This document shows, piece after piece, positions 12,803 through 31,777 of a DNA stretch of 33,435 bases; position 1 is the stretch's first letter, and each line of letters opens with the position of its first letter. A program made the position numbers and the translations under genes. The notes beneath the pieces were generated by a model. That model saw only the letters and a program-made list of their open reading frames with translations. It was not told the origin of the DNA and ran no database searches. Origin of the DNA: an uncultured Luminiphilus sp. (GTDB taxonomy: Bacteria; Pseudomonadota; Gammaproteobacteria; Pseudomonadales; Halieaceae); contig CALKNZ010000103.1 in the NCBI GenBank assembly GCA_938091995.1, forward strand, positions 1-33,435, written 5' to 3'.

Positions 12803-12854
12803 CGATTCGATCTCTTTAATTTTGAAATTGATCCACCCATTATTGTTCTCTCTA

Positions 12855-12882
12855 TTGACAGATTCACGTGCTGATTTAAAAG
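12855..12882 (+). promoter_or_regulatory. Putative sigma-70 promoter for the oxidoreductase operon
   Basis: A perfect TTGACA (12855-12860) is followed after 16 bases by TAAAAG (12877-12882), four of six matches to the -10 consensus. Transcription would start near 12889. That suits translation starting at the ATG at 12949 or 12979 better than at the TTG at 12901. Confidence 0.4.
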
Positions 12883-12978
12883 AAAGAACGGGTTGAACAC
12901 TTGTTTGCCGATTTCGACACCCCTGAGGGTGAGCAGTTAGATACTGTGATGAGATCAAGTGCGCAAATCAAAACTAAC

Positions 12979-16452: not shown

Positions 16453-16490
16453 TTGCCGAAGCTGCTCAGGGCCTCACAGGGGATCTAAGG

Positions 16491-18863
16491 TTGAGGCGGC
16501 GCACCGTTATCACAGTGGGTGACGACATCCTTTTTCCAACCTGCTCGCACTGGGGTAACTTCCGAATCGCGACTCAAAGCGGTCAAGTGACCAAAGTATT
16601 GCCCTACAAGGTCGATGCTGAACCTTCACCCATTGGTCAATCACTACTGGATCATGCCGACCCCAAAGTGAGGGTCGCACAACCGATGATTCGCGAGGGC
16701 TACCTGAACAATCCGACTGCGGAGTCGAACGGTGCACGAGGTACCGAGCCCTTCGTCGCTGTAAGCTGGGACCAAGCCATTACCCTCGCCGCCGATCGGC
16801 TTAAGGCTTTCTGGAGAGACAGTGGTCCCAACAGTATTTATGGGGGGTCTTATGGCTGGGCCAGTGCCGGGCGTTTTCACCACGCGCAGAGTCAGATCCA
16901 CCGCTTTCTGCGCCTAGGAGGTGGTTATGTGTCATCCGTCAACTCATACTCAGCGGCCGCTGCGGAAGTTATCATCAAACATATTTTGGGCTTCCCGCTC
17001 CTTGCGCTACTTCGAGAATCCCCCTCTCCAGAGGAAATAGCGCAACACAGCAAAACCATGATTCTGTTCGGTGGAGCAGCCATAAAGAACGCCCAAATCA
17101 ATGCTGGGGGACTCGGCCGCCATTCCGCCAGAGCGCAATTACGGCAACTGCGTGATGCAGGAGTCCGTATCGTCAATGTCAGCCCGTTAAAAGATGACAC
17201 TGTGGCGGAGCTAGAAGCGCAATGGGTACCCTGCCGGCCGGGCTCAGATACTGCGATTATGCTGGGCATGGCCCACACGCTCTACATCGAAAACCGATAC
17301 GATAAACACTTCATCGATGAATACACGACCGGCTTCCAAAGGTTCGTTCCCTACCTAACAGGCGAGACGGATGGCGAGCCCAAAACAGCACGCTGGGCGA
17401 GCGAGCTGTCGGGAGTGCCAGAAGACCTTATTGTTGATCTCGCGCGAGCCGCTAGCAACGCCCCAAGCCTGATCAGTGTGAGCTGGTCACTCCAACGACA
17501 ACTATTCGGCGAGCAAACCTGGTGGATGGTCACCGTACTAGGAGCAATGCTGGGATTTATCGGCAGACCTGGAGCAGGGATCGGGTATGGATATGGCTGC
17601 ATCCACAACATGGGTTTTGGCAGCAGAAAGATTCCCAACTTCCGGATTGGCGCATTTGGCGAAGAAGTCGGAGAGCGCATCACCGCTGAAAACCACTTTA
17701 TCCCCGTAGCACGACTCGCCGATATGCTGGAAAAGCCCGGGCAGAGCTTCAACTACAATGGTCAACGATTAACCTACCCAGACATAAAGCTCATCTACTG
17801 GGCTGGCGGCAACCCCTATCACCATCACCAAGATCTTAATCGTTTGCGCCGCGCTTGGCAGAAGCCACAAACCATTATTGTTAATGAATCGTTTTGGACC
17901 GCTACTGCAAAGCACGCGGACATTGTGTTTCCGATCAGTACTTTTTTAGAGCGCAATGATGTGGGGGGTAGTGCCTACGATGAGTATCTGACTCCCATGC
18001 ATGCCGCGACCTCACCTTTTGCCAACTCTCGAAGTGATTACGCGGTGTTTTCCGCTCTTGCAGAGAAACTGGGGTTTGCGCCTTCATTTACCCAGCATCG
18101 CGACGAAATGGCCTGGGTGCGGTCTCTGTATGAGGAGACAAAAAGTAATGCGGCCGCGCAGGCGATCTCACTTCCGAACTTCGATGAATTTTGGCAAGGT
18201 GAGCAAATCAGTTTTGGAGATCAACTCCCCCGCGCTGAATTCATGCTCGAAAAATTTCGTCAGAATCCGAACGCTCACCCATTGAGAACCCCTAGCGGAA
18301 AAATCGAGATTTTTTCTGAGAAGATTGACGCCTTTCAGTATCCAGATTGCCGGGGCCACCCACGCTGGTACGATCGAGACGAATGGCTGGGGAACCCATC
18401 CCAAAGGTACCCGCTGCATCTAGTGTCAAATCAGCCCAAACACAAGCTCCACAGTCAACTCGATCATGCTCGGTCAAGCCAAGTTTCAAAAATATCTGGC
18501 CGGGAAACCCTTCGCCTCAACGCAGCGGATGCAGTGATACGCGGACTTAAGCAAGGTGATATTGTCAAAATATTCAATGCACGAGGCGCTTGTCTCGCCG
18601 GGGTGCTCATCTCAGAAGCCATTATGCCCGGCGTTATCGAGTTGCCCACAGGAGCTTGGTTTGACTCCCAAAAAATTGATGGTGAGACACTTGAGGTTCA
18701 CGGCAACCCAAATGCACTGACGCCTGACATGGGCACTTCCATGTTGGCTCAAGGTTGCTCTGCGCATACCTGTATGGTCGAGATCGAGAAATATGACGCC
18801 CCCCTACCGCACCTGAAAGCATTTGAGCCGCCCGCTACAATCACCCACCCACCAACGGCCTGA
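16491..18863 (+). CDS. Molybdopterin oxidoreductase, DMSO reductase/BisC type
   Basis: A molybdopterin-guanine-dinucleotide enzyme of about 790 residues close to biotin-sulfoxide, TMAO and DMSO reductases. Seen: CSHWGNFR near the N-terminus, GGSYGWASAGRFHHAQSQ near residue 118 (the segment that supplies the Mo-binding serine in this family), WAGGNPYHHHQDLNRL, LERNDVG, and the C-terminal dinucleotide-binding domain with LVSNQPKHKLHSQLDH. There is no N-terminal iron-sulfur Cys motif and no twin-arginine signal, so it is probably cytoplasmic like BisC. The frame extends back to a TTG at 16419 inside the preceding gene. I chose the TTG at 16491 because AGGGGA lies seven bases upstream; the GTG at 16515 is also possible. 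It is in an operon with the 2-oxoacid oxidoreductase. The substrate is unknown. Confidence 0.88.
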   Translation: MRRRTVITVGDDILFPTCSHWGNFRIATQSGQVTKVLPYKVDAEPSPIGQSLLDHADPKVRVAQPMIREGYLNNPTAESNGARGTEPFVAVSWDQAITLAADRLKAFWRDSGPNSIYGGSYGWASAGRFHHAQSQIHRFLRLGGGYVSSVNSYSAAAAEVIIKHILGFPLLALLRESPSPEEIAQHSKTMILFGGAAIKNAQINAGGLGRHSARAQLRQLRDAGVRIVNVSPLKDDTVAELEAQWVPCRPGSDTAIMLGMAHTLYIENRYDKHFIDEYTTGFQRFVPYLTGETDGEPKTARWASELSGVPEDLIVDLARAASNAPSLISVSWSLQRQLFGEQTWWMVTVLGAMLGFIGRPGAGIGYGYGCIHNMGFGSRKIPNFRIGAFGEEVGERITAENHFIPVARLADMLEKPGQSFNYNGQRLTYPDIKLIYWAGGNPYHHHQDLNRLRRAWQKPQTIIVNESFWTATAKHADIVFPISTFLERNDVGGSAYDEYLTPMHAATSPFANSRSDYAVFSALAEKLGFAPSFTQHRDEMAWVRSLYEETKSNAAAQAISLPNFDEFWQGEQISFGDQLPRAEFMLEKFRQNPNAHPLRTPSGKIEIFSEKIDAFQYPDCRGHPRWYDRDEWLGNPSQRYPLHLVSNQPKHKLHSQLDHARSSQVSKISGRETLRLNAADAVIRGLKQGDIVKIFNARGACLAGVLISEAIMPGVIELPTGAWFDSQKIDGETLEVHGNPNALTPDMGTSMLAQGCSAHTCMVEIEKYDAPLPHLKAFEPPATITHPPTA

Positions 18864-20363: not shown

Positions 20364-21449
20364 ATGGATTCAGCGACTCTGTTTTCAAAATCCTACTCAG
20401 AGGCCCGTGAGCGCTTTCTGGACGCAGCCAATGACTGCGGCTTTAGTATCCACTCTCAGGTGCTGGACATTTCAGGCCCGGCTGGCGAAGAGCTGGCCAT
20501 GGATTTTGCAGTGGGTGGGCCGGCCGATGCCGCTACTGCATTAGTTATTGTCAGCGGCACCCATGGTCCAGAGGGCTATACCGGATCTGCCTGCCAATTG
20601 GGGTTTCTCACTTCACCCGAGTTCCGTGAGCTGTTCGCGAACCACCGCATCGTTCTGGTTCACGCCCATAATCCCTATGGCTTTGCATGGACCCGAAGAA
20701 CCACCGAAGGTAACGTGGACCTGAATCGCAACTATGTTGATTTCAATCAGCCGCTGCGAGGCAACCCAGAGTACGACGCTTTACACGATGCGTTTGTGCC
20801 GCGAGCAATCGATGACCCGGATGCCAAGAGAGTGCTCGAGGATTATCGCGAGGCGCACGGCCCAGTGGCGTACATGGCGGCGATGCTGGGCGGTCAACGG
20901 ACTCATGCCGATGGCCTGTTCTATGGTGACACCAAGCCTGCTTGGTCTCAGGAAGTCATGGTGGCTGGACTGAGGCGCTGGCTGAAGGATCAGAAAACCG
21001 TCTTGCTCATTGACATCCATACAGGGTTAGGGCCCTACGGCGTTCCTTATCTTGTTCACGGTTATCCTGAGAATGACCCGCGCTTTAGTGTCCTCAATAC
21101 CCAGTTTGGATCAGCAATGCGCTCGACAGCCGTCAAAGAAGCTTTCGATGAGGATCTCCCCGTTGATCCGGAAGGGCCTATTGTTCTAGCAATGGATTGG
21201 ATTCTGCCGGACAAAAAAACCTATGCCTTTGTCATTGAATATGGCACTTACCCTCCCGATGAGGTACTGGGCGCTCATCAACAGGATAACTGGCTTCATG
21301 CCTACGGAGATTTGCAGTCCGAACAGGGCAAGGCGATCAAAGAGGAACTGCGCCGAGTCATGTATCCGGAGTTTGATGACTGGAAGACCATGATTTGGAA
21401 CGAGGCTGAAGACGCCCTGCATAAATCAGCAAAGGTATTGAGCGGTTAG
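20364..21449 (+). CDS. M14-family zinc carboxypeptidase-like protein (DUF2817)
   Basis: A 361-residue protein of the M14/DUF2817 group. Zinc ligands are visible as GTHGPEG (His67, Glu70) and DIHTGLGPYG (His219), with DLNRNYVDF (119-127) carrying the substrate-binding Arg/Asn. No signal peptide is seen, so it is probably cytoplasmic. M14 enzymes remove C-terminal residues or cleave amide conjugates of amino acids (succinylglutamate desuccinylase and aminoacylase-like members belong here). The frame extends upstream to a TTG at 20238, but that part overlaps a possible promoter and relatives begin close to FSKSYSEARERF, hence the ATG at 20364. The stop overlaps the stop of the converging TetR gene by four bases. 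It may deconjugate an amino-acid amide, which is inference. Confidence 0.83.
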   Translation: MDSATLFSKSYSEARERFLDAANDCGFSIHSQVLDISGPAGEELAMDFAVGGPADAATALVIVSGTHGPEGYTGSACQLGFLTSPEFRELFANHRIVLVHAHNPYGFAWTRRTTEGNVDLNRNYVDFNQPLRGNPEYDALHDAFVPRAIDDPDAKRVLEDYREAHGPVAYMAAMLGGQRTHADGLFYGDTKPAWSQEVMVAGLRRWLKDQKTVLLIDIHTGLGPYGVPYLVHGYPENDPRFSVLNTQFGSAMRSTAVKEAFDEDLPVDPEGPIVLAMDWILPDKKTYAFVIEYGTYPPDEVLGAHQQDNWLHAYGDLQSEQGKAIKEELRRVMYPEFDDWKTMIWNEAEDALHKSAKVLSG

Positions 21450-22066
21450 GACGCCACACCCAAACCATGCAAAATTTGGGCTTTGGCACTTTCCGCCAGA
21501 GCCCTGCCATCGAGTGTGTCTGCAAATCGATACCACTCAAGCAACATACCGTCAGTAAGAGCCACCAAGACCGCCGCCCGTTCCTTGATCGCGACTTTGT
21601 CGTCAAACAGGCCAAGGGCCTGCCCTTCAGTCGCTATGCGGTTCATCTCCTCATGGTAGCGGTCATACATCTTACGAACATGTTCCGCTACAGCCGGCTC
21701 CTTACCCATCGCCTGAAGGGAAACCAGTATGGGGAGTACCAGCAGCTCCTGATTTTTAGCGCCGGTCTCCGCACACCAATCGACAAACATGCTCAATTGC
21801 TCTACCGGGCCCTCACGAGAAGTTCGCATTTGCTCAAAAATCTCTGCATACAAAGCTTCGGCATCGTCCAACAGTGCATGGAGCAAAGCCACTTTGCCCT
21901 TAAAATAAAAATACACTGCACCTTTGGTGAGCCCAGCTTTTGCAGCTATGGCATCGATAGTAGCGTTTTCGTAGCCCTGTGATACAAAAAGTTGCAGAGC
22001 AGCAGCCAGCACGTGCTGAACACTTTGCTCTCGTCGCTCCTCGTTACTGCGTCTGGCTGGCTGCAT
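21446..22066 (-). CDS. TetR/AcrR family transcriptional regulator
   Basis: A 206-residue regulator with an N-terminal TetR helix-turn-helix: LAAALQLFVSQGYENAT (helix 1 onward), IDAIAAKAGLTKGAVYFYF (recognition region, about residues 41-59) and a helical ligand-binding C-terminal domain. It is the last gene of the minus-strand operon that starts at 28352, three bases after the AraC gene. Regulators of this type usually repress and respond to a CoA ester or fatty acid. The only strong TetR-type inverted repeat noticed lies before the first gene of the same operon (28377-28402), so feedback control of its own operon is the simplest reading. This is an inference from position and repeat form. Confidence 0.92.
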   Translation of the reverse strand: MQPARRSNEERREQSVQHVLAAALQLFVSQGYENATIDAIAAKAGLTKGAVYFYFKGKVALLHALLDDAEALYAEIFEQMRTSREGPVEQLSMFVDWCAETGAKNQELLVLPILVSLQAMGKEPAVAEHVRKMYDRYHEEMNRIATEGQALGLFDDKVAIKERAAVLVALTDGMLLEWYRFADTLDGRALAESAKAQILHGLGVAS

Positions 22067-22069
22067 GCA

Positions 22070-23116
22070 TCAAACCCCGCCGGCGCGTCGCTCTGACGGG
22101 CAACACCCGAACCACTTCCTATAGCTACGGGCGAAGTTACTGCAGTCGCTGAAGCCCAAATGATAAGAAATTTCGTTAATCGACTTACCGGAATGGGATA
22201 CCAGCTCCGCCGCCAATTCCTGACGCGTCCTTAGAACAATCTGGTGATGACTCAGCCCCGCTTGCTGCAGTGCAACTTTGAGACGGCAATCCTCCATACC
22301 CAACCATGCGGCGATGTCCCGCCTGTCATAAGCCCCCATGGGCAAAAGCTCAAAAAGTGCCACTCGAATCTGAGTTTCGAGATCAACAGAGCCCATGAGC
22401 CGAAGATGATCGAAAACCTGGCGCTCACTTCGTCTTGCGAGCTCGGCATTACCACCCGCCAATGGCTCATCCAACACAGAAGCGTCAAAGCACAAGGCGT
22501 CAATGGCACTTCCAAACTTCAGCGGGCAGCGAAAATAGTGTTCATAATCATCCACAAAACCCAAGGGCGGCGGTGAAGAAAATTGCACTTCAACGGGAGC
22601 AAAGCCGGGCGAAGAGACCATTCTCAGCATTCGGACCCAGGTAGCCGCCCAACCCGAGAGCCGCGCAAGGCGCGCCATAGGACTGTCACCGGCCTCCTCA
22701 TGGCAGTGATAAACAAGCATCGCTCTGCCATTAACCACATCAAATGACACCGACTTGTTAGTGGTGACCCATGCATAATAACGGGCTAATCTGGTACAAA
22801 ACTGTCTAAGTGTGGGCGATGAAATAAGCATCAAACCGTAGCAGTGGTAAGTTGTGGCGTGCACATTCTCCGCAAATTTTAATCCAAACAACGGCCCCAG
22901 CTCCGAGCTCACTGCTCTAGAAATAATTTGCGATAGTGATTGGATCGGCACACGTTCAAAGCTCTGAGCCAAGGCCTCTGGAGCCACACCCGCCTCCATG
23001 AGCACGCCGTGGGTATCGACACCCAGCTTGTCGAGTGTTGTCGCAACGCCCTGAATGCTACTCATTGAGACGGATTCCCCTGCGGGAAGTGCCGCTGCCG
23101 AAATTACTTGCCTCAT
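22070..23116 (-). CDS. AraC-family transcriptional regulator (OruR type)
   Basis: A 348-residue regulator with an N-terminal arabinose-binding-like domain (about residues 20-205, with the YHCYGLMLISSPTLRQF core) and two C-terminal AraC helix-turn-helix motifs, the second in SINEISYHLGFSDCSNFARSYRKWFG near residues 314-339. Proteins of this layout activate ornithine, lipid or acyl-CoA catabolic genes. GGGGGATGAA stands directly before the ATG. It sits inside the operon, 15 bases after the MaoC-fold gene and immediately before the TetR gene, giving the operon one probable activator and one probable repressor. The ligand is unknown. Confidence 0.9.
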   Translation of the reverse strand: MRQVISAAALPAGESVSMSSIQGVATTLDKLGVDTHGVLMEAGVAPEALAQSFERVPIQSLSQIISRAVSSELGPLFGLKFAENVHATTYHCYGLMLISSPTLRQFCTRLARYYAWVTTNKSVSFDVVNGRAMLVYHCHEEAGDSPMARLARLSGWAATWVRMLRMVSSPGFAPVEVQFSSPPPLGFVDDYEHYFRCPLKFGSAIDALCFDASVLDEPLAGGNAELARRSERQVFDHLRLMGSVDLETQIRVALFELLPMGAYDRRDIAAWLGMEDCRLKVALQQAGLSHHQIVLRTRQELAAELVSHSGKSINEISYHLGFSDCSNFARSYRKWFGCCPSERRAGGV

Positions 23117-23131
23117 TTCATCCCCCTGTCT

Positions 23132-23551
23132 CTATTCTTTTATCACCTCTACCATGCAGGTCGTCGTTTGGCCTCGCTCACTTTCACACCAGAGATTCAA
23201 CAACCATTTTTCCCCTCGCTCTACTTCATCAATAGCGACAACCTTACCCCGAAATAAAAGCGTATCCCCCACCACATTGAAATTTAGCATCTTTAGCGGC
23301 CCTATTTTTTTAAATCGTATGCAAGACCCAGCCCAGTTACGCACGAGCCGCTCGAACATACCCATAAGGAAAAAGGTATTAGCGAAAGCTGCACTGGCAC
23401 CGGCCGATTGCGCCACAGCAGAATCATGGTGCATGAGTGAAAAATCTCGATTGGCCCCTGCTTCCATAACTAGCCGCTGTAAGGTAATAGGAATTTCAAT
23501 GGCAGGTAGCACGTCTCCAACCGCCGGAGCTTTGGCAAGTTTCTCGGTCAT
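23132..23551 (-). CDS. MaoC-fold hydratase subunit, ChsH1-like
   Basis: A hot-dog-fold protein of 139 residues. The hydratase motif is seen as NRDFSLMHHD (Asp36, His41/His42), matching the Asp-x4-His catalytic pair of R-specific enoyl-CoA hydratases. The stretch from RDFSLMHHD to RNWAG resembles the actinobacterial ChsH1 subunit as I remember it (RDxQDVHHD ... TDWAG). ChsH1 pairs with ChsH2 to hydrate the enoyl-CoA of a shortened sterol side chain. The start overlaps the stop of the upstream MaoC-like gene (ATGA), consistent with a heteromer of one catalytic and one acyl-binding subunit. The substrate here is unknown. Confidence 0.85.
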   Translation of the reverse strand: MTEKLAKAPAVGDVLPAIEIPITLQRLVMEAGANRDFSLMHHDSAVAQSAGASAAFANTFFLMGMFERLVRNWAGSCIRFKKIGPLKMLNFNVVGDTLLFRGKVVAIDEVERGEKWLLNLWCESERGQTTTCMVEVIKE

Positions 23552-24105
23552 TTGGTCACGCCCTGTTCCACATAGAAGCGGAAGATATCAAGATTAGCCA
23601 CCGCAATAACCTCTCCCGATTGCTTAGTATAGGTATCTTCCTGCCTAAGAAATGCGCCGGGGCCTACTTTCAGCGTTTTGCGCTGAATATCGATTAGTCT
23701 GCTAACGCATCCAACCACGTCACCCGGATACAACGGTTCGTTAAACTCGACTTCCATACTGGTGGCAAAACTTTTATTACAAGGCGCGGGCACATTAAAG
23801 ATCACCGGTATCTGTATTTGGGTGGGTTCATCGTCGATAGACTTCGAGGAATCTCCGGGTGACCAGTAAGGCGCTACACCATAGCTAAACACCATCGAAG
23901 CGGGCGCCACCAGATCTGGAAAACCGACGGCACGAGCAGCGCCGACATCGGTATGAATTGCGCAGTCAAACTCCTTGGGCTCAAGCCAACGGCGGATACT
24001 GCCCGGCTCAACAGGGTCCGGACCCCACCATTCACCAACCACCGTGTTGAGGCATGCCTCGGTCTCCTCCCAGCTGCCCCACAACCCCCAGCCGACGTCG
24101 CTCAT
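23548..24105 (-). CDS. MaoC-like N-terminal dehydratase domain protein, ChsH2 N-domain-like
   Basis: A 185-residue hot-dog-fold protein of the FAS1/MaoC N-terminal dehydratase class. It has a long entry region (VGEWWGPDPVEPGSIRRW), then GFPDLVAPASMVFSYG, where the hydration motif would lie, and a C-terminal strand pair ending FYVEQGVTK. It lacks the Asp-His pair and so is probably the acyl-binding half of a heteromeric hydratase with the gene that follows by four-base overlap. In mycobacterial ChsH2 an equivalent domain is fused to a DUF35 domain; here the DUF35 protein is the preceding gene, three bases upstream. That split is noteworthy. Assignment rests on fold features and gene order. Confidence 0.82.
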   Translation of the reverse strand: MSDVGWGLWGSWEETEACLNTVVGEWWGPDPVEPGSIRRWLEPKEFDCAIHTDVGAARAVGFPDLVAPASMVFSYGVAPYWSPGDSSKSIDDEPTQIQIPVIFNVPAPCNKSFATSMEVEFNEPLYPGDVVGCVSRLIDIQRKTLKVGPGAFLRQEDTYTKQSGEVIAVANLDIFRFYVEQGVTK

Positions 24106-24108
24106 AGA

Positions 24109-24516
24109 CTATACCGGTCTAAAAAAAGGCAGGGTGATGTCCTCGGTAATCGAGCGAAAGACCACCTCGACCTCCATCCCAATGGCGACGTCCTCAGGCT
24201 GGCATTCCACTAGATTGGTGTGCATGCGGATTCCCTCAGGCAGATCTATCCACGCCAAAATGATCGGCAAATCCTCCACAAATTTTTGCTCCACACCCTC
24301 ATAGGTTACGGAATACGTATAAACCGTCGCACGCCCGGAGGCTTTAATCCATCCCAAGTCCTGACTCCAGCACTCCGGGCAGTCGCGGCGCGGATAAAAA
24401 ATATTGGCATCACAGGCATTGCAGTGCTGTATGAGTAAAAGTCCCTTTTTGGTCCCATCCCAGAAGGGCTGGCTATAAGGCTGTATTTCGGGCAACGGCT
24501 TTTTATAGTCGCTCAT
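24109..24516 (-). CDS. DUF35 / OB-fold zinc-ribbon protein
   Basis: A 135-residue protein with a rubredoxin-like zinc ribbon (CNAC at 32-35, CPEC at 46-49) followed by an OB-fold (SGRATVYTYSVTYEG and the strands after it). This is the acyl-CoA-associated DUF35 family. Such proteins bind thiolase-like aldolases and shape the CoA-ester site; in the Ltp2-ChsH2 complex the DUF35 domain is essential for retro-aldol cleavage. The ATG overlaps the stop of the thiolase gene (ATGA), which supports a complex with it. The N-terminal YSQPFWDG segment is typical of the family. Confidence 0.92.
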   Translation of the reverse strand: MSDYKKPLPEIQPYSQPFWDGTKKGLLLIQHCNACDANIFYPRRDCPECWSQDLGWIKASGRATVYTYSVTYEGVEQKFVEDLPIILAWIDLPEGIRMHTNLVECQPEDVAIGMEVEVVFRSITEDITLPFFRPV

Positions 24517-25694
24517 CGTGGCTTCCTCCCAAAGACCGTGGTGCAGGTATTCATCACGGAACCACCGGAAGTGGTCAGAATCGCGTGTTCACATTGATCG
24601 ACCTGACGATCCCCGGCCTCGCCGCGCAATTGGCGGACGCTATCGAGGTAGAACGCCATACTGACGCCACTGCCTGTATGTCCTCTTCCAGTGGCATCGC
24701 CCATGGTCGTGCAGGGCAAGTCGCCTCCGGGACCACAACGTCCCTCCGCCCAGAGCTTTGCTCCCTGTCCGTCCTCGCAAACGCCATAACCCTCGAGCGC
24801 GCTACATTGCGTATAGGGGTAGGCGCCATAGATCTGCCTGAGGTCCATATCGTGGATTGACAGCCCAGCCTGGGACAACGCGTCGCGACTGGACTCGCGG
24901 TAAGCTTGGCGGTGAAACACATCCTCGCGAAGCATGGGTGTAGCACTCATAAAACGGGTGCCATGTCCCAATTTGTAAACCGCCTTATCACCTAACTCCC
25001 GAGCCTTTTCCCATGAGGTGACCACCATCGCTCCGCCACCATCTGCCAGCAAATTACATTCCTTAGCCTTCAATGGTGTGCTAATCAGGCGAGAGTTCAT
25101 AACGTCGTCCAAGGTTACGGTTTTACCATAAAAGATAGACAGCGGATCGAGGGCGCCCCAGGCCCGTAAAGCAACTGTCACAGAAGCTAACTCTTCCTCC
25201 GTTGCACCGGTCTCATACATGTAGCGCTGAGTAATAAGACCCATTGACCCGTTAAAACTTACGCCATACGGATATTCAAATTGCTTATCGAGGGGTGCGG
25301 TAGCAAAGAAGTTGATGAGGTCCTGAGGCGGCATATCGGACTGAACAGTGGTGTGTGGAATCAGTACGTAGTCTACCTGACCGCTGGCGATGTGCTGCTC
25401 TGCCAGCCGCAAACAGTTGGTTGTGGATGCGCCCCCCGCATTGCAAATTGCGATGTCGCGACAGCCTTTCAGGCCCATGACCTCGGGAATTTTTCCCAGC
25501 GACATATCATTTTGCATTGAGGGCTGCGCCATCGGATTATTCGAAATGACAGCACCGATAAGATTCTTGTCTATTCCCGCATCACGAATCGCTCCCATAC
25601 AGACATCCAGCAGTATGTCCCAGCGCTGACGCTCAGGATCACGGCGCGTAGGCACCTCCGCGATTCCTACAATCGCGAGACCAGATTTTGTCAT
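24513..25694 (-). CDS. Thiolase-fold protein, probable SCP-x/Ltp2-type retro-aldolase
   Basis: A 393-residue non-decarboxylating thiolase-fold protein. Seen: ICNAGGAS (Cys84 near the thiolase nucleophile position), DGGGAMVV (218-225), YGAYPYT (289-295) where ordinary thiolases have NEAF, and GRGHTGSG (336-343, His339). The loss of the NEAF motif and pairing with DUF35 point to the sterol-carrier-protein-x/Ltp2 branch, whose members cleave beta-hydroxyacyl-CoAs by retro-aldol reaction instead of thiolysis. A GAGGAGGGAG ribosome site follows a run of ten A on the coding strand. With the hydratase subunits downstream it forms a hydrate-then-cleave module. Whether Cys84 is used is open; plain thiolysis remains possible. 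Confidence 0.88.
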   Translation of the reverse strand: MTKSGLAIVGIAEVPTRRDPERQRWDILLDVCMGAIRDAGIDKNLIGAVISNNPMAQPSMQNDMSLGKIPEVMGLKGCRDIAICNAGGASTTNCLRLAEQHIASGQVDYVLIPHTTVQSDMPPQDLINFFATAPLDKQFEYPYGVSFNGSMGLITQRYMYETGATEEELASVTVALRAWGALDPLSIFYGKTVTLDDVMNSRLISTPLKAKECNLLADGGGAMVVTSWEKARELGDKAVYKLGHGTRFMSATPMLREDVFHRQAYRESSRDALSQAGLSIHDMDLRQIYGAYPYTQCSALEGYGVCEDGQGAKLWAEGRCGPGGDLPCTTMGDATGRGHTGSGVSMAFYLDSVRQLRGEAGDRQVDQCEHAILTTSGGSVMNTCTTVFGRKPR

Positions 25695-25738
25695 TGGCTC
25701 CCTCCTCTTTTTTTTTTAAGCCAGCCAGTGGTCAGGGT

Positions 25739-26590
25739 TTATGCGTAATCGGTATGGCTGTACTCCGCGCGGTCAACTAAATCGAGATTGTCGTCAACGC
25801 TGACAGCGAGGGGGCGCCTCAGAGTCACGGTGTCGGGATCTGTCGGTACCATGAACTCCCACAAAGTTGGCGGTACAGTTGCACCGCGGCACTTGCGTCG
25901 CACTGAGTCCCAGTCATCTGGGCACTCGCAACGCAGCTTCGATTGTATTTCTGTCGGCTCCAAGCCCGTTGCTTGAGCCAGCACATCGACCACATCGTCT
26001 ATAAAACCTGACCGTGCAGATTCAAGTGACGCCGCTCTAATACCTGCGTCTAAAAGCAAATCCGCTGCAGCAACATCGCCAAACCAGCGCGCTACCGTAG
26101 GCCCCCGTATGGCGAGTGACTGCCGCATGTCGTCCTGCTCTTCATCGCTAGTCGCCGTCATCCAGCCCTCGAGGCCCAACCGGTGAAAATAGAGCTCCTT
26201 GCCAAAATGCTTCACCATGCCCGATAGCGCTTTGTCGCTCCCCTCTAAAAAGGTTGAAAGTAGGCGCCATACTGCACATTCCGCCAAGAACGCAGTGACG
26301 AGGAAATCACCCCAGTTCTGTGGAGGAAGCGACAACGCCTCAAGATCATGTAATTCGCTAGGTTTGCGACCAAACTCAAGCTGGTGCTCGGGCAGTCCAA
26401 GACGATCTTCCAACAGCCGAAAAATCGCCCGTGTATGGCCCAGGCTGTCCTGCCCCATACCCGCGAATGCTGTGCAATCGGGGAGACTGCGGCCATTCAG
26501 CATCACTTTGATATACCAGTGCCCTAACACCCAGTCGGTATCGGCAATACACAGTAACTCCTGCATCAACGCCTTGTCTGTTCCAGACAT
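25739..26590 (-). CDS. PaaC-like structural subunit of a CoA-ester diiron oxygenase
   Basis: A 283-residue ferritin-like protein of the phenylacetic-acid-catabolic (PF05138-type) family, corresponding to the non-catalytic PaaC partner of PaaA. The segment GMGQDSLGHTR (45-55) lines up with the PaaC sequence NIGLDLLGQAR of E. coli, and FGKELYFHRLGLEGWM with the second helix pair. It is longer than E. coli PaaC (248) by some 35 residues, mostly an extra C-terminal tail ending DRAEYSHTDYA. The frame opens at 26653, but the ATG at 26590 has GGGAGAG upstream. PaaC forms a heterodimer with PaaA and docks PaaB. Retention of QDxxGH suggests a metal site may partly persist. Confidence 0.85.
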   Translation of the reverse strand: MSGTDKALMQELLCIADTDWVLGHWYIKVMLNGRSLPDCTAFAGMGQDSLGHTRAIFRLLEDRLGLPEHQLEFGRKPSELHDLEALSLPPQNWGDFLVTAFLAECAVWRLLSTFLEGSDKALSGMVKHFGKELYFHRLGLEGWMTATSDEEQDDMRQSLAIRGPTVARWFGDVAAADLLLDAGIRAASLESARSGFIDDVVDVLAQATGLEPTEIQSKLRCECPDDWDSVRRKCRGATVPPTLWEFMVPTDPDTVTLRRPLAVSVDDNLDLVDRAEYSHTDYA

Positions 26591-26616
26591 CTCTCTCTCC
26601 CACTCGCTGCCCCGAA

Positions 26617-26838
26617 CTACTGCCCGGGAAGTTTGTCCTGCCACTTCATCCATCCAAAAACAGCCTTACACTGATTACACTGCATACTCATTTCCGACAC
26701 CGTACCGCCAAAAGGATTCGAAACACGCGTGCTCTCCGACCCACACCAAGGGCAAGCGACGGTCGCGTCGTATTGCAACCCGAACAACTCTGTCAGGCTG
26801 CTAGAACGATCCTTGCTGCTATCGCGCCCCTCAGCCAC
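26617..26838 (-). CDS. Stand-alone PaaD C-terminal zinc-ribbon domain
   Basis: A 73-residue protein with two CxxC pairs (Cys29/Cys32 and Cys54/Cys57) in the pattern VACPWCGSESTRVSNPFGGT ... QCNQCKAVFGWMKW. This matches the C-terminal ribbon of E. coli PaaD (VRCPRCAS ... EFGST ... RCDSCREPFDYFK). In ordinary paa operons this domain is fused behind the DUF59 domain; here that domain is a separate gene at 27097. The start is the GTG at 26838, three bases after the PaaB-like stop, with a poor ribosome site, so translation may depend on coupling. Its role should be assembly of the diiron centre in the oxygenase. Confidence 0.8.
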   Translation of the reverse strand: MAEGRDSSKDRSSSLTELFGLQYDATVACPWCGSESTRVSNPFGGTVSEMSMQCNQCKAVFGWMKWQDKLPGQ

Positions 26839-26841
26839 GGC

Positions 26842-27087
26842 TTAAGCAATCCCGATCATGTCGTTAACCGAGATCACCGGTATCACCTCGGCACGAGGAC
26901 AAATACACATTTCTACCCAGGGTTTTTCCGAGTACACCATCCTTGCCTGGCCAACCGCTGCAGCCCTGTTTGGCGCACTGACAGAGCCCAAATGAAACAG
27001 GGGTCCGTCAAGCTCCTCCCGTGCAAATACCTCAAAATAGTCCCAGTCCATGGTATTGCGCGCTGTTTTTTGCGTGACTAAACCCAC
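26842..27087 (-). CDS. PaaB-like bridging subunit of the oxygenase
   Basis: An 81-residue protein matching the PaaB family in its core WDYFEVFAREELDGPLFHLGSV and AAAVGQARMVYSEKP, with WVEMCICPRAEVI in place of the PaaB SIWVVKASEI. E. coli PaaB has 95 residues and extends further at the C-terminus. PaaB bridges PaaAC dimers and is required for turnover. The GTG start at 27087 is preceded by AGGAG at a six-base spacing and was kept over the internal ATG at 27051. It lies between the two parts of the split PaaD. Confidence 0.82.
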   Translation of the reverse strand: MGLVTQKTARNTMDWDYFEVFAREELDGPLFHLGSVSAPNRAAAVGQARMVYSEKPWVEMCICPRAEVIPVISVNDMIGIA

Positions 27088-27096
27088 CTTCTGCTC

Positions 27097-27411
27097 CTAG
27101 ATGCAATAACCATGTTCACGTGCAATAAGTCGAGCCTCGGGAACGATGTCGTCCCGGCTCCATTCGTGTTGCCACTCAACGCTCACTTTGGTGGAGCGCA
27201 CCCCCGCAAGCGCGCCAACCGAACGCTTGATATCGTTTTGGATCAAATCCCAGGCCGGACAACCCACGCACGGGAACACCAACCCAACATCGACATCGCC
27301 GTCTTGTGAAACCGTAATTCTTCGGACCATGCCCATATCAGGGAGGCTAACGTTCATGTGCGGATCCATCACACCATTGAGGACCTCAGCCACGGCGCCT
27401 TCGGTTACCAC
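27097..27411 (-). CDS. Stand-alone PaaD N-terminal DUF59 (MIP18-like) domain
   Basis: A 104-residue DUF59/MIP18-family protein. It aligns by eye with the first two thirds of E. coli PaaD: MDPHMNVSLPDMGMVRRI against PDPEIPVLTITDLGMVRNV, FPCVGCPAW against TYSGCPAT, and WQHEWSRDDIVPEAR against LDPAWTTDWMTPDAR. It stops where the PaaD zinc ribbon would begin, and that ribbon is encoded separately at 26617. DUF59 proteins help build iron centres; PaaD is needed for active phenylacetyl-CoA epoxidase. The GTG start overlaps the end of the paaA-like gene by seven bases. Confidence 0.85.
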   Translation of the reverse strand: MVTEGAVAEVLNGVMDPHMNVSLPDMGMVRRITVSQDGDVDVGLVFPCVGCPAWDLIQNDIKRSVGALAGVRSTKVSVEWQHEWSRDDIVPEARLIAREHGYCI

Positions 27412-28352
27412 AACTGATCACCCCATTCTTCCCGCTGCAAACGCTCGTAGCAGGAGGGACGCATCGGCCCACCAGACTTGAACTTGCCGATAGCACGATC
27501 CCAACTGGTCTCTTCCCATTCCCAATCATGGGCTCCTGCATCAAAGGTCATTGGGTAAGGCATATCGGTAATACGATACTCACCGGTTTCTTCGTCCTTC
27601 TCTGCAGGCACCTTGAGACCGACCCGGTCAGCAAAGTCAGTCGCTGACCGGAGCCATTTATTGCGCATGGTGTCGTTACTCCACGCGCGGACCTTGTAGT
27701 TCAGCTGATCCGGGTATCCCTTTAAATCGTCCGGACGTCCGTACCAGTGGTAACCCCAGGGAAAGATCCAGCGGACGGCATCTTCAACCAGCTCTTTAGT
27801 CTCATCGTTCTGATTGAAATAGAACTCCGTCCACATCGCGCCATGACGAAAATGATAAGCCTCCTCAAAATTGACTTTTTTTAGCGTCCGCCGATAGGGC
27901 GCAAAGCTGCAATTGAGCTCGATGTCCCACGTCGTAAAACGACCAGCTCGATCCAGGAATGCCTGTGAAACCACAAACTCTGCATAATTTCTGACAGGAA
28001 ACTCCATAATGGGCAGCGACCAGTATTTTCTTGGATCCGCCTCAAAAGCGACCTTCTGCATATCAAAACCAAAGCGCTCAAAGAGCATGCCCTGTTGGTG
28101 GGCATGTCCAACTTCGTCCTGAATGGTTCCACAGATCGCGACTTTGGCCCCGATATCTGGCGCAACTCTGAACGCGGTGTAAGCCCACGTCAGCACCGTC
28201 ACTTCAGACTGCGCAGCAATCTCGAGGGTTCGCTCCAGAATTGCGCGATAGCGGGGCGTCAACTCCTGCATATCCTCGATCAATTCGCCCGCGTGTATGC
28301 GTTCTAGTAGCGCCTGCTCTTGGGGATCAACCGCTGTCATTGGCTGCGACAT
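27405..28352 (-). CDS. PaaA-like diiron catalytic subunit of a CoA-ester monooxygenase
   Basis: A 315-residue ferritin-like diiron protein homologous to PaaA (309 in E. coli), the catalytic part of phenylacetyl-CoA 1,2-epoxidase. Iron ligands are visible: AAQSE (Glu50), QDEVGH (Glu80, His83) and FEEAYH (Glu163/Glu164, His167), aligning with HSE, QDEAGH and EESFH of E. coli PaaA. The substrate-side loops differ strongly (SLPIMEFPVRNYAEF in place of SIFNYPTLSWADI), so the acyl group oxidised may not be phenylacetyl. AGGAAAAG precedes the ATG. It is the first gene of the operon behind the operator at 28377. No PaaE reductase is in the window, so electrons must come from elsewhere. Confidence 0.88.
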   Translation of the reverse strand: MSQPMTAVDPQEQALLERIHAGELIEDMQELTPRYRAILERTLEIAAQSEVTVLTWAYTAFRVAPDIGAKVAICGTIQDEVGHAHQQGMLFERFGFDMQKVAFEADPRKYWSLPIMEFPVRNYAEFVVSQAFLDRAGRFTTWDIELNCSFAPYRRTLKKVNFEEAYHFRHGAMWTEFYFNQNDETKELVEDAVRWIFPWGYHWYGRPDDLKGYPDQLNYKVRAWSNDTMRNKWLRSATDFADRVGLKVPAEKDEETGEYRITDMPYPMTFDAGAHDWEWEETSWDRAIGKFKSGGPMRPSCYERLQREEWGDQLW

Positions 28353-28441: not shown

Positions 28442-29965
28442 CTACCCCGCTTCAAGCCGCAGCTTAATGGCCTTTTTGTCTACTTTTCCAAGGTTGGTAA
28501 GCGGCAAAGCACTATCAAATTCAATGGACTTTGGGGTTAGCAAGGGGCCCGCACTTTGCCTCAGAAAGCCAATCAGCTCTTCCTCTGAGCACTCCCGGCC
28601 TGCTTTTAGCACCACCACCGCGTGCACCCGCTCGCCCCACTTACGATCCGGCAGTCCAACGACCGCCGCAATATCAACGCTGTCATGCGCCATCAATGCC
28701 CGCTCCACGTCATGTGAATAGATATTGAAGCCGCCGCTGATAATCATGTCCTTAAGCCTATCAACGATAAACAGAAACCCTTCTTCATCTATAAATCCCA
28801 CATCGCCGGTATGAAGCCACCCCGACCGCAGCGCTTCAGCGCTAGCCTCGGGGCGTTGCCAGTAACCCGCGAGGAGACTTGGCCCCTTAACGCATATTTC
28901 ACCCACCTCTTTCAGGGGTAAGGCGCTACCGCGAGCATCAACGACCGACACCGTCATACCGAGAGTCGCTCGCCCCACACTCTCAAGCCGCCTACTCACC
29001 GATGGATTGTGTTCCTTGTGTGTCATACACGTAATATGAATGCTCTCCGTTTGACCGTAGCACTGGTGTAAAATAGGACCGAAAAGGTGGAGGGCTTCGC
29101 GAAGCCGCTCCGGTGCGATGGGCGCCGACGCATAAATAATGTGCTCCAAGTTGCTCAGATCTCTTTGACCAACGCCAGGATGATCGAGAAGTCCGTAGAT
29201 CATACTGGGCACTAGAAAGAGTGTATTGACGCCCTGATTCTCAATACATCGAATCACCGGCTCGGGCGAGAACCTAGGCAACAGCGAAACGCGTCCGCCA
29301 AGCATCAAAACTGGCAGCACTAGAAATCCCGCAGCATGACTGATCGGTGAACACGCCAAAAAATGCGGCTGTTCGGGAAACTGCCACGCAGCTCGCGCAA
29401 TCTCAGCAGTCGCCCCCATACCTCTCTGTGTGTGCATGACCCCCTTAGGATCACCCGTGGTACCACCGGTGTAACTAACCCATGCAATATCTTCGCTATT
29501 TTGTTGATCATCCAGCCAAGGCCGATCAACTAATAAATCCCCCAGATACTCACCAAAGTTTGCCCGGGAAAGCGTGATCACGGCCAGCTTGGGGAAGGCG
29601 TCGGCTAATCGGGCACCCCACTCTGCAAATGCTGCAGAATCAATGACCAACAGCTTGGCTTGGGAATCATTGACAACAAATCGCTGCTGATCCAAAGAAC
29701 CCAGAGGATGAAGGGGCGTGTAACGAACGCCCGCGCGCAGACAGGCTGCCATAACGGCAAAAGCATCTACACAATTACTTGCAAGCTGTGCCAATCCATC
29801 GCCACGCTCTAGCCCAGAGGCTCGCAACAGACTGGCAATACCCTCAATACGCTGTCGCAACGCGTGACCGCTGTAAAACTCCCCCGTTACATCAGCGACC
29901 GCGACTGCATCACCGATATCAGCCAAAGCTTTATTCAATAAATCTGTGTAATTAGCTGATGCCAC
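28442..29965 (-). CDS. AMP-forming acyl-CoA ligase
   Basis: A 507-residue adenylate-forming enzyme. Motifs seen: YTGGTTGDPKGVMHT (P-loop), YGQTES, WLHTGDVGFIDEEGF, and DRLKDMIISGGFNIYSHDVE, with the C-terminal lysine in NLGKVDKKAIKL. It activates a carboxylic acid with ATP and CoA; motif order and length fit the fatty-acid/aryl-acid ligase class rather than PaaK-type phenylacetate ligase. It starts with GTG after GGATGG. It lies just upstream of and in line with the oxygenase operon, 89 bases before it, and would supply its CoA-ester substrate. That is inferred from position. Confidence 0.92.
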   Translation of the reverse strand: MASANYTDLLNKALADIGDAVAVADVTGEFYSGHALRQRIEGIASLLRASGLERGDGLAQLASNCVDAFAVMAACLRAGVRYTPLHPLGSLDQQRFVVNDSQAKLLVIDSAAFAEWGARLADAFPKLAVITLSRANFGEYLGDLLVDRPWLDDQQNSEDIAWVSYTGGTTGDPKGVMHTQRGMGATAEIARAAWQFPEQPHFLACSPISHAAGFLVLPVLMLGGRVSLLPRFSPEPVIRCIENQGVNTLFLVPSMIYGLLDHPGVGQRDLSNLEHIIYASAPIAPERLREALHLFGPILHQCYGQTESIHITCMTHKEHNPSVSRRLESVGRATLGMTVSVVDARGSALPLKEVGEICVKGPSLLAGYWQRPEASAEALRSGWLHTGDVGFIDEEGFLFIVDRLKDMIISGGFNIYSHDVERALMAHDSVDIAAVVGLPDRKWGERVHAVVVLKAGRECSEEELIGFLRQSAGPLLTPKSIEFDSALPLTNLGKVDKKAIKLRLEAG

Positions 29966-30055: not shown

Positions 30056-31078
30056 TTAGGATTCGTCGTTGAGTGCGACTTTAATGCGGTAGGTCATCGG
30101 TGAAAGCCCCGTCCACTTTTTAAAGGCTCTTGAAAAATTTGCAGTGTCAGAAAAGCCTGTAAGGTAAGCGATTTCGTTCACCGGTAAACCCTTTGTCAGA
30201 TAATCCTCAGCCAACAGCTTGCGAGTTTCATCCAGAACCTCACGAAAGGTAGTACCCGCCTCTTCAAGACGGTTGTATAGCGTCCTAGTACTCACGCACA
30301 GTACGCTTGCCACAGCATCTTTTCCAGATACACCAGTGGGCAGTAGTCTCACCAATTCGTTGCGAACCCGTGCTGGGAAATCAGCTTTTTCCAGCTTAGC
30401 TATATATTGTTCGGTCAGCTGGTCATAAGACTGGGCGAGCTGTGGATCTGCACCAACCAAAGGCAATTGAAGCAGTTGAGGGTCAAAAAATATCGAGGTC
30501 TCAGGCGCACCAAAAAGGACCTCGCATCCAAAGAAGTCCTCGTAGTGCGACGCCTCATCTTCAGGGAAAGGGCGCGCCAAAGACACAGTGCGGGGCCGAA
30601 ATTCGTTCTGACTTGCTATGCGAAGAATAGTTACGAAGATGGCGGCAATGCCATCTTCACGGATTGGAGGAAACGGCTCTGGATTATGCGTCGTCCAGCG
30701 CAGCGCACATTCACCGACCTCTTTCACCAGAGACATCACATCATTGGTAGTCACCACAGAGTAGTAACGCACCATTTTTTCAAGATACTCACCCATTGTG
30801 GCGCTGCAATAGGCAGCTACGCCCAAGCTGTAAAAAGTGGTGGGATGGATAAACTTCGCCAAATGTAATCCAAAGGTGCGAGCCGAGGCCTGCGCTTCAA
30901 TCGCTTGCAACAAATTTCGAAAAGCGCCGTCAGCGATCCGAGTATTAGGGTCAAGCAGCGGCCCTACCTCGATACCAGCCTCTGCGAATAAGGGCTCAGG
31001 TTCAATACCTAAATCCTCCAGCGCTTGCCAGATAACGACACCTAGGGGACCAATAGTCGAAAATTTCTGTGCGATCAT
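30056..31078 (-). CDS. AraC-family transcriptional regulator
   Basis: A 340-residue OruR-type regulator with the N-terminal arabinose-binding-like domain and a C-terminal double helix-turn-helix, the second in LPVNEIAYLTGFSDTANFSRAFKKWTG. It has the same layout as the AraC protein at 22070 but clearly differs in sequence, so it is a paralogue rather than a recent copy. It lies upstream of the ligase gene, same strand, 90 bases away, and diverges from the MaoC-fold gene at 31322. No ribosome site is seen before the ATG. Targets are probably the ligase or the divergent gene. Confidence 0.9.
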   Translation of the reverse strand: MIAQKFSTIGPLGVVIWQALEDLGIEPEPLFAEAGIEVGPLLDPNTRIADGAFRNLLQAIEAQASARTFGLHLAKFIHPTTFYSLGVAAYCSATMGEYLEKMVRYYSVVTTNDVMSLVKEVGECALRWTTHNPEPFPPIREDGIAAIFVTILRIASQNEFRPRTVSLARPFPEDEASHYEDFFGCEVLFGAPETSIFFDPQLLQLPLVGADPQLAQSYDQLTEQYIAKLEKADFPARVRNELVRLLPTGVSGKDAVASVLCVSTRTLYNRLEEAGTTFREVLDETRKLLAEDYLTKGLPVNEIAYLTGFSDTANFSRAFKKWTGLSPMTYRIKVALNDES

Positions 31079-31321: not shown

Positions 31322-31777
31322 ATGAAGACAATATTGCAAACCCAAAGAGATTTCGAAAGCCGCGTTGGTAAAACTCTGTTTGAGTCACAACCTGTAATAA
31401 TCGATAGCGATCGAATCCAAGCCTACTGCAAGAGCCTCGACCAGCTTGACTGGTTCCATTTCGATGAGGACCAATGCCACGAGGCAGGGCTCACCAACAT
31501 AATCGCGCCAGGCTCGCTGACCTTTGCTTTGGTACACTCTACTTTTTTTCAACATATCGAATTAATAGATCTTAAAGCGCTTTTTGTGGGCAGTGATCGC
31601 TTTCGGGTAGTGCGCCCAGTCACGGCAAACGATTTGGTAAAGCTACGAATGGTAATCGCTACTGTCGAAAGTAGACAGGAAGGCTTCCGAGTGGCCTACC
31701 AATTTGAGTGGCAAGGGGCTAACGAGGCCGACCCAATATCCAATGGGATGTTTCTTGTTCGATACTGGCCCAGTTAG
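31322..31777 (+). CDS. Small MaoC-fold (hot-dog) protein
   Basis: A 151-residue protein with the MaoC/NodN-like layout: QPVIIDSDRIQAYCKSLDQLDWFHFDEDQCHEAGLTNIIAPGSLTFAL would match the hydratase motif and the following PG helix (positions about 24-70). At the catalytic motif the His is kept (DWFHFD) but the Asp expected five residues earlier reads Gln, so activity is doubtful. The C-terminus carries the usual antiparallel strands (VGSDRFRVVRPVTANDLVKLRM). It stands alone on the plus strand, divergent from an AraC gene, with remnants of decayed genes behind it. A stand-alone hydratase or a CoA-binding accessory is possible. Confidence 0.72.
   Translation: MKTILQTQRDFESRVGKTLFESQPVIIDSDRIQAYCKSLDQLDWFHFDEDQCHEAGLTNIIAPGSLTFALVHSTFFQHIELIDLKALFVGSDRFRVVRPVTANDLVKLRMVIATVESRQEGFRVAYQFEWQGANEADPISNGMFLVRYWPS

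Follow-up and report, generated by a model that had tools for sequence, protein, structure and literature searches.

A run of eleven minus-strand genes in DNA of an uncultured Luminiphilus sp. (Halieaceae) joins an oxygenase of the PaaA type to a module of hydratase-like and aldolase-like proteins, at positions 21446-28352 of the 33,435-nucleotide stretch analyzed here (the window). The oxygenase is not the PHENYLACETATE enzyme, being a paralogue of authentic PaaA, and the operon is read, with chances that we put just short of even, as a catabolic unit for a coenzyme A (CoA)-activated acid other than phenylacetate, acting by oxygenation, hydration and retro-aldol removal of an acyl-CoA. As such the conserved gene set suggests an undescribed breakdown route for some CoA-activated acid. 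The window corresponds to contig C103 of genome G000, an assembly of 2.88 Mb with 81% completeness.

A preliminary description of the window had proposed eleven close-packed genes here, encoding PaaA-, PaaB-, PaaC- and PaaD-like proteins followed directly by a thiolase-fold protein, a DUF35 protein and two MaoC-fold proteins. All eleven are open reading frames at 21446-28352 with intergenic gaps of -37 to +44 bp, and the Pfam and PDB matches agree with these assignments, those to MaoC and PaaB being weak. In order of transcription, all on the minus strand, the genes encode a PaaA-like catalytic diiron subunit (27405-28352; Pfam PaaA_PaaC, 118 bits), a DUF59/SufT-like protein equivalent to the N-terminal half of PaaD (27097-27411; Pfam FeS_assembly_P/DUF59, with paad_haloarch at 60.8 bits against a cut-off of 180), a PaaB-like bridging subunit (26842-27087; Pfam PaaB, weak at 29.9 bits against a cut-off of 27), a zinc ribbon equivalent to the C-terminal half of PaaD (26617-26838; Pfam Zn_ribbon_PaaD) and a PaaC-like structural subunit (25739-26653; Pfam PaaA_PaaC, 70 bits). 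There follow the thiolase-fold protein, a predicted retro-aldolase (24513-25694; Pfam Thiolase_C_1, with G88, Y289, A291 and H339), a DUF35 protein with zinc ribbon and OB fold, its predicted partner (24109-24516; OB_ChsH2_C 71.1 bits, zf-ChsH2 40.3 bits), a ChsH2-like hotdog subunit lacking the catalytic Asp, predicted to bind substrate as a partner (23548-24105; Pfam FAS1_DH_region), a ChsH1-like MaoC hydratase subunit with a D36-x4-H41 dyad (23132-23551; Pfam MaoC, 20.4 bits and under the cut-off of 27), an AraC-family regulator of the Arabinose_bd type (22070-23116; Pfam AraC) and a TetR-family regulator named by sequence inspection, with homologues at related loci (21446-22066). The motifs RDFSLMHHD and YGAYPYT reported earlier are both present. 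The PaaA_PaaC domain (PF05138) in both large subunits, together with PaaB (weak) and the PaaD parts, places the first five proteins in the Paa family.

Two features extend the earlier picture. PaaD is split over two genes, DUF59 and zinc ribbon, as in the NCBIfam models built for haloarchaea, and a gene for an acyl-CoA ligase forming adenosine monophosphate lies just outside the eleven, on the same strand (28442-29965), ending 89 bp upstream of the paaA-like gene. The ligase best matches the FadD8 type (417.7 bits, under the cut-off of 875; PDB 8ivi) and stands upstream of PaaA in most relatives examined, with no match upstream of PaaA in L062; it probably activates the substrate acid. The PaaB-like protein scores higher in NCBIfam on TIGR04031 (34.5 bits) than on PaaB (21.8 bits), both under cut-off. 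TIGR04031 is the Htur_1727 family, named as a candidate ribosomally synthesized and post-translationally modified peptide, and a Haloterrigena plasmid gene at the PaaB place is annotated PaaB, such that TIGR04031 may be PaaB-like rather than a peptide of that kind. A scan for promoters and terminators gave sites no commoner than in shuffled sequence.

The window oxygenase is distinguished from the phenylacetate epoxidase because the genome has its own paa set and paaK and because the PaaA-like protein lies outside the authentic-type clade. On contig C76 of the same genome paaZ, paaG, paaI, paaJ, paaA, paaB, paaC, paaD and paaE form one run, with only the 3′ part of paaZ preserved at the contig end. 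Eight of the nine score above the matching curated cut-off, paaJ by way of the 3-oxoadipyl-CoA thiolase model, with paaE under its own (397 against 421), while paaK is found on contig C88 (676.5 bits, cut-off 646.3). On the PaaA equivalog model TIGR02156 the window protein reaches 77.5 bits against a cut-off of 280 and the C76 copy 518.3, and identity between the window protein and authentic PaaA is about 24-28%. In a tree of 39 rows (26 PaaA and 13 PaaC) the PaaA-like protein falls outside a clade of 12 authentic-type PaaA rows with support of 100/100 and a branch of 2.58; of these rows E. coli and C76 are verified and the other ten are labelled by their place in the tree. It shares a group (99/100) with rows from Natrialbaceae, Agrobacterium and an alphaproteobacterium (G307); those from Thermus and Haloterrigena lie outside both groups without a resolved place. 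The tree carries a long-branch warning, chiefly for PaaC rows. The preliminary description had named, as what would overturn its proposal, a PaaA homologue within the authentic clade, used by the strain for phenylacetate, with paaEGJKZ elsewhere. As it had noted, paaK, E, G, J and Z are absent from 21446-28352, and all lie on other contigs of the genome, which also has its own paaABCD there, but the window protein is outside the clade.

The diiron ligands of E. coli PaaA are E42, E72, H75, D126, E155 and H158, according to the parts consulted of a structural account from which the roles of the lysine bridge, K103 and F108 are also taken (PMC4498308). All six ligands are present in the window protein (E50, E80, H83, D134, E164 and H167), as had been noticed from the sequence, and in all eight close-kin PaaA rows (seven of them distinct). 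Residues K68 and E49 of the lysine bridge, K103 and F108 are replaced in the same eight rows and retained in 12/12 authentic-type rows, with T, A and M in the close kin at the bridge and F108 places against K, E and F; in the window protein T76 and A57 stand for K68 and E49. In six more distant relatives K68 and E49 are likewise replaced, one of them (Natrialbaceae) also lacking E155. Since the ligands are kept and the bridge and pocket residues lost, the PaaA-like protein is predicted to have an active diiron center together with an altered pocket and electron path.

The thiolase-fold protein matches 4u4e and 7yvy best in the PDB, followed by CtSal (9myr, taken as CtSal by its YDCY motif), BbsB and TcLtp2 (6ok1). 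MAFFT alignments set Gly88 at the place of the nucleophilic Cys, a probable placement, and a Gly in place of this Cys has been described for Sal, as far as the portion seen of that report goes (PMC12329534). Tyr289 aligns with Y294 of TcLtp2 and Y302 of CtSal, the steroid aldolase base, and the HDAF motif of thiolases reads YGAY, such that the combination of Cys with HDCF or HDAF typical of SCP2-type thiolases is lacking. In the 13 rows covering both places, three pair Cys with His and ten pair Gly with Tyr, the window protein and IpfD among the ten. Ala291 aligns with His296 of TcLtp2 and Cys304 of CtSal, and His339 with Tyr344 and Gln352. The Ltp2 pair Y294/Y344 is therefore incomplete, Y289 being present with H339 at the Y344 place, as is the Sal dyad Tyr302/Cys304, represented by Y289/A291. 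Rows of Rhizobium, Rhodococcus, Sphingobium, Mycolicibacterium rufum and 4u4e likewise have His at the H339 place, as do the Cys-bearing thiolases. The protein is predicted to be aldolase-like by its Tyr base and lost nucleophile, with a different second residue, and the predicted Tyr/His pair also occurs in uncharacterised relatives. A thiolase nucleophile at C84, read from a phmmer alignment, was set aside after the MAFFT alignments, C84 being conserved in none of the ten other rows outside close kin covering that place, though such a role may still hold.

Both hotdog proteins have ChsH1/ChsH2 as their best PDB matches. The pair conforms to the ChsH1-ChsH2 arrangement of a MaoC subunit with the catalytic dyad and an inert partner, the Asp/His dyad of the ChsH1-like protein (D36/H41) being present in 9/9 kin rows and the ChsH2-like protein having Phe at the Asp place with the His retained. 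ChsH2 itself loses the dyad His, as stated in the sections available to us (PMC11321319). DUF35 is encoded by a gene of its own (24109-24516) and is not fused to the ChsH2-like protein.

Linkage of the oxygenase and the module was followed in 13 close-kin loci with the PaaA-like gene (the window, L035-L043 including L038 and L041, L062, L073 and L074). The thiolase gene directly follows paaC in 11 of them, from two genera (the window, L035, L036, L037, L039, L040, L042, L043, L062, L073 and L074), and all four module genes are visible in eight, the contig ending inside the module in L039, L042 and L043. The gene order is judged more than chance because it recurs in close kin in which the regulators have diverged to about 41-57% identity. 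Compared with L062, L073 and L074, the best conserved window proteins are the thiolase-fold protein (86-92%), PaaA (83-84%) and DUF35 (79-86%), followed by the ChsH2-like protein (72-78%), DUF59 (67-70%) and the ChsH1-like protein (63-66%), with the zinc ribbon (57-62%), PaaC (54-59%), PaaB (52-54%), the ligase (49-50%, two loci) and the AraC regulator (41-53%) conserved least.

From gene content, conservation and the active-site residues placed by alignment, we infer the substrate class, the order of reactions, the products and the electron donor as follows. The ligase would make the CoA ester of the substrate acid. The PaaA/B/C-like complex, with the split PaaD serving its maturation and a reductase whose gene lies outside the operon (perhaps PaaE of the C76 set) supplying electrons, would insert one oxygen next to the carbon bearing the acyl side chain. 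Addition of water by the ChsH1/ChsH2-like pair would then place a hydroxyl beta to the thioester. In the last step the thiolase-fold protein and DUF35 would cut off the side chain by a retro-aldol reaction in which Tyr289 would serve as the base and His339, probably, as the acid. ChsH1/ChsH2 hydrate the 17-ylidene steroid CoA ester on a ring carbon, where Ltp2 then cuts. In the parts consulted, PaaABCE is described as making a ring 1,2-epoxide, the oxepin isomer of which is a ring-ylidene-acetyl-CoA (PMC4498308), and the general hydratase/aldolase scheme is given in two papers likewise seen in part (PMC12329534; PMC11321319). In its specific form the route would run from a ring 1,2-epoxide to an oxepin whose exocyclic ring-ylidene-acetyl-CoA double bond, of the type hydrated in 17-ylidene steroid CoA esters, would be the target of the ChsH1/ChsH2-type pair. 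Hydration and retro-aldol cleavage would then yield a ring lactone, or a catechol via a dihydrodiol, along with acetyl-CoA, or with propionyl-CoA where the substrate has a 2-methyl group. Such a hybrid route for aromatic or cyclic acids, with Paa-type epoxide or oxepin formation, ChsH-type hydration and a Tyr/His retro-aldolase from which the acyl side chain leaves whole, is a doubtful proposal, though one with some chance of being right; if true, the side chain would come off as acetyl- or propionyl-CoA, in place of ring opening by PaaG and PaaZ.

Several observations weigh against coupled oxygenation and retro-aldol cleavage. L038 (on the same contig as L063, genome G049) and L041 carry the ligase and Paa set with an AraC gene directly after paaC; thiolase, DUF35 and the MaoC pair are absent from both loci, and G049, which is 100% complete, gave no thiolase match at 1e-80. 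These loci speak against an obligatory coupling, and since they lack the module the oxygenase appears able to work without it; they offer natural tests of whether the aldolase module is needed. Outside close kin nine loci were examined (eight plasmid loci among the 24 matches listed, at 31-37% identity, and G307), and the four module genes had no match at any of them (tblastn, 1e-3). Annotated enoyl-CoA hydratase genes occur at 6/6 loci (five haloarchaeal, one Thermus), with an aldehyde dehydrogenase too at four of these (L049, L050, L075 and L077), which suggests a different, PaaG/PaaZ-like continuation there; in close kin its place is occupied by the hydratase/aldolase module. The operon encodes no reductase, and no downstream ring-cleaving enzyme was identified. 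Searches for LigB and catechol 2,3-dioxygenase gave no matches in G039, 98% complete and with the cluster present, the catechol 2,3-dioxygenase model being unspecific with below-cut-off matches in 9/14 control genomes, and a search for intradiol dioxygenases gave none in G000, the one genome searched (81% complete). Ala291 and His339 fit neither steroid aldolase pair, the placement of Gly88 is aligner-dependent, phmmer setting the N-terminal gap elsewhere, and a fused MaoC protein of M. rufum is without the dyad Asp. AlphaFold models from shallow alignments were too poor to help (predicted local distance difference test scores of 38 for the thiolase-fold protein and 48 for the PaaA-like protein). 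Of the oxygenation-hydration-retro-aldol sequence put forward in the preliminary description, the joining of a non-authentic Paa-type protein to a ChsH/aldolase-like module stands, with the order of reactions a matter of interpretation, two of 13 loci lacking the module and the residue pairs incomplete.

Among other explanations, the two modules might serve one substrate at different stages, an enoyl-CoA made by a dehydrogenase being hydrated and shortened and the Paa-type enzyme independently attacking the ring or the shortened acid. This is possible, if on balance unlikely, and is in keeping with two observations: both the window and the surroundings of the L041 Paa set contain genes for CaiB, enoyl-CoA hydratase and a pair of acyl-CoA dehydrogenases, and two of 13 loci have Paa genes without the aldolase module. 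One of the dehydrogenases has Pro at the place of the catalytic Glu, as a heteromeric enzyme might; heteromeric acyl-CoA dehydrogenases are exemplified in steroid degradation. The dehydrogenase pair, however, lies outside the operon, with about 16 kb between its end and the ChsH1-like gene, while 11 of 13 loci have the Paa and aldolase genes side by side, with PaaA and the aldolase among the best-conserved proteins of the cluster. It is improbable that the ChsH1-, ChsH2- and Ltp2-like genes are enzymes of steroid or bile-acid side-chain degradation with the oxygenase acting on a steroid. The best PDB matches of the MaoC pair, the presence of KshA_C-type oxygenases in six of the seven genomes searched and the listing of OM60 genomes among predicted steroid degraders, in the part of that study consulted (PMC4810484), would agree with it, but G039 has the cluster with no match of the KshA_C, LigB or catechol 2,3-dioxygenase type, and the aldolase is without either known steroid pair. 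A steroid substrate is less likely because of this co-occurrence result, which comes from one genome.

An acyltransferase or thiolase of the BbsAB or PhlBC kind, with no aldolase activity, is a similarly improbable reading of the thiolase-fold and DUF35 proteins. Their best matches 4u4e and 7yvy are named thiolase and acetyl-CoA acetyltransferase, BbsB matches too, the GH-motif His of thiolases is retained (H339), and the phmmer alignment allows C84 near the nucleophile. This is countered by the MAFFT placement of Gly88, by the exchange of HDAF for YGAY and by the covariation of the two places, Gly going with Tyr and Cys with His in 13/13 rows, 4u4e itself having Gly and Tyr. That the operon encodes a second, redundant phenylacetyl-CoA epoxidase, to which the shared fold family and subunit set and the retained diiron ligands would lend themselves, is very improbable; this role was rejected on the tree, the lost pocket residues, the paa set on C76 and the paaK on C88.

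Compared with known systems, the window operon shares with PaaABC(D)E of E. coli and C76 one catalytic and structural subunit family, PaaB, the PaaD parts and the six diiron ligands, but differs in its split PaaD, its adjacent CoA ligase, the lack of PaaE, PaaG and PaaZ in the operon and the loss of the lysine bridge and pocket. The nearest kin of the oxygenase are PaaA-DUF59-PaaB-PaaC sets of haloarchaea, Thermus, Agrobacterium and G307 (33-39% identity), which also have a split PaaD and, at 7/9 loci, a relative of the window ligase nearby. They differ in having no homologue of the window module, although the end of L075 carries an annotated thiolase-domain gene without a match, and L051 an annotated MaoC/PaaZ C-terminal gene. 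ChsH1-ChsH2-Ltp2 resembles the window in its catalytic and inert MaoC subunits, DUF35 and a thiolase-fold protein with a Tyr base; in the window DUF35 is unfused, Tyr344 and His296 of Ltp2 are replaced by His339 and Ala291, and in G039 the cluster occurs without KshA_C. The Shy-Sal bile-acid system likewise has an aldolase with a Tyr base and DUF35 as its partner, but Shy is one hydratase subunit in place of two and Cys304 of Sal corresponds to Ala291.

The ipf run of Rhizorhabdus wittichii plasmid pIBU218 (L091), in which gene names including IpfD were assigned from gene order, resembles the window operon in layout, uniting a ring oxygenase, thiolase-fold protein, DUF35 and CoA ligase. IpfD has Gly, Tyr and Ala at the G88, Y289 and A291 places, but Tyr at the H339 place and 31% identity over 242 residues. 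Unlike the window, the ipf cluster has a two-subunit (alpha and beta) aromatic-ring dioxygenase, of the Rieske type, and no annotated MaoC pair. Propionyl-CoA formation in the ibuprofen pathway is ascribed to the ipfDE thiolase in the portion of the source available (PMC9195938). The ipf pathway thereby offers a precedent for the side-chain release proposed for the window operon. Because ipf already joins oxygenase, thiolase-like protein, DUF35 and ligase, novelty lies in the Paa-type diiron oxygenase and the MaoC pair. The earlier statement that no described pathway combines both modules is qualified to this extent, the combination of a Paa-type oxygenase with a ChsH/aldolase module having no description among the open-access literature matches listed (titles and abstract beginnings, with most subscription journals outside this scope). 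On M. rufum plasmid DNA (L070:2021-11474) an oxygenase, CoA transferase, thiolase-fold protein, DUF35 and one MaoC protein occur together, the single MaoC protein matching both window subunits and the thiolase-fold protein having Gly, Tyr and His at the G88, Y289 and H339 places. This cluster, which differs in two Rieske-annotated oxygenases and the fused MaoC protein without the dyad Asp, is possibly a Rieske counterpart of the window operon. About 11 kb from the ipf run, pIBU218 carries a second DUF35/thiolase-fold pair with CaiB and enoyl-CoA hydratase (L069:4099-7717), the thiolase-fold protein of which has an Ltp2-like YDHF and Tyr.

Near-identical operon loci occur in Marine gamma proteobacterium HTCC2080 and one Halieaceae assembly, further kin loci coming from Luminiphilus and Halieaceae, with L041 and L043 assigned to Gammaproteobacteria only. 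Of 57 genomes of the genus, nine have the PaaA-like protein (identity of at least 84%), as do 11/140 genomes of the family (E 1e-30), representing 2/28 genera. Among 398 genomes drawn from the phylum and 337 drawn from the class to which G307 belongs, G307 (39% identity) gave the only match outside the host that reached E 1e-30; the PaaA matches in G199 and G417 (28% identity, E 1e-21 to 1e-22) are placed by the tree among the authentic-type proteins. The operon is directly testable and is carried also by the HTCC2080 genome.

Further genes of the window may belong to the same island. A second AraC-family regulator, an open reading frame upstream of the ligase (30056-31078, minus strand), is followed by a further MaoC/FAS1_DH hotdog protein (31322-31777, plus strand), a homologue of which is encoded close to the cluster at several kin loci. 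On the minus strand lie an acyl-CoA dehydrogenase of the catalytic type (TEGTNEIQ; 6029-7183), a possible pathway member with a 73% identical homologue near the L041 Paa set, its possible partner with Pro at the catalytic Glu place (4857-6029; homologue in L041) and a family III CoA-transferase (CaiB; 11648-12958), another possible member with homologues near the cluster in L041 and L062. The adjacent dehydrogenase pair (4857-7183) resembles a heteromeric enzyme. At 12901-18863 a fused indolepyruvate:ferredoxin oxidoreductase-like gene stands beside a molybdoenzyme gene of the BisC/TorA family, both with homologues near the Paa set in L041, L062 and L063. L041 runs from a BisC-family oxidoreductase through the fused indolepyruvate:ferredoxin oxidoreductase, MaoC, AraC, ligase and Paa set to AraC, a predicted amidohydrolase (named from its sequence), CaiB, two acyl-CoA dehydrogenases and an enoyl-CoA hydratase, its homologues being 45-73% identical to those of the window except for the enoyl-CoA hydratase and second AraC (39% each) and PaaA (84%). 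Elsewhere in the window's own genome three KshA_C-type oxygenase matches lie within 18 kb (G000:C4:27578-45026, L086), which suggests a separate steroid or terpenoid island on C4.

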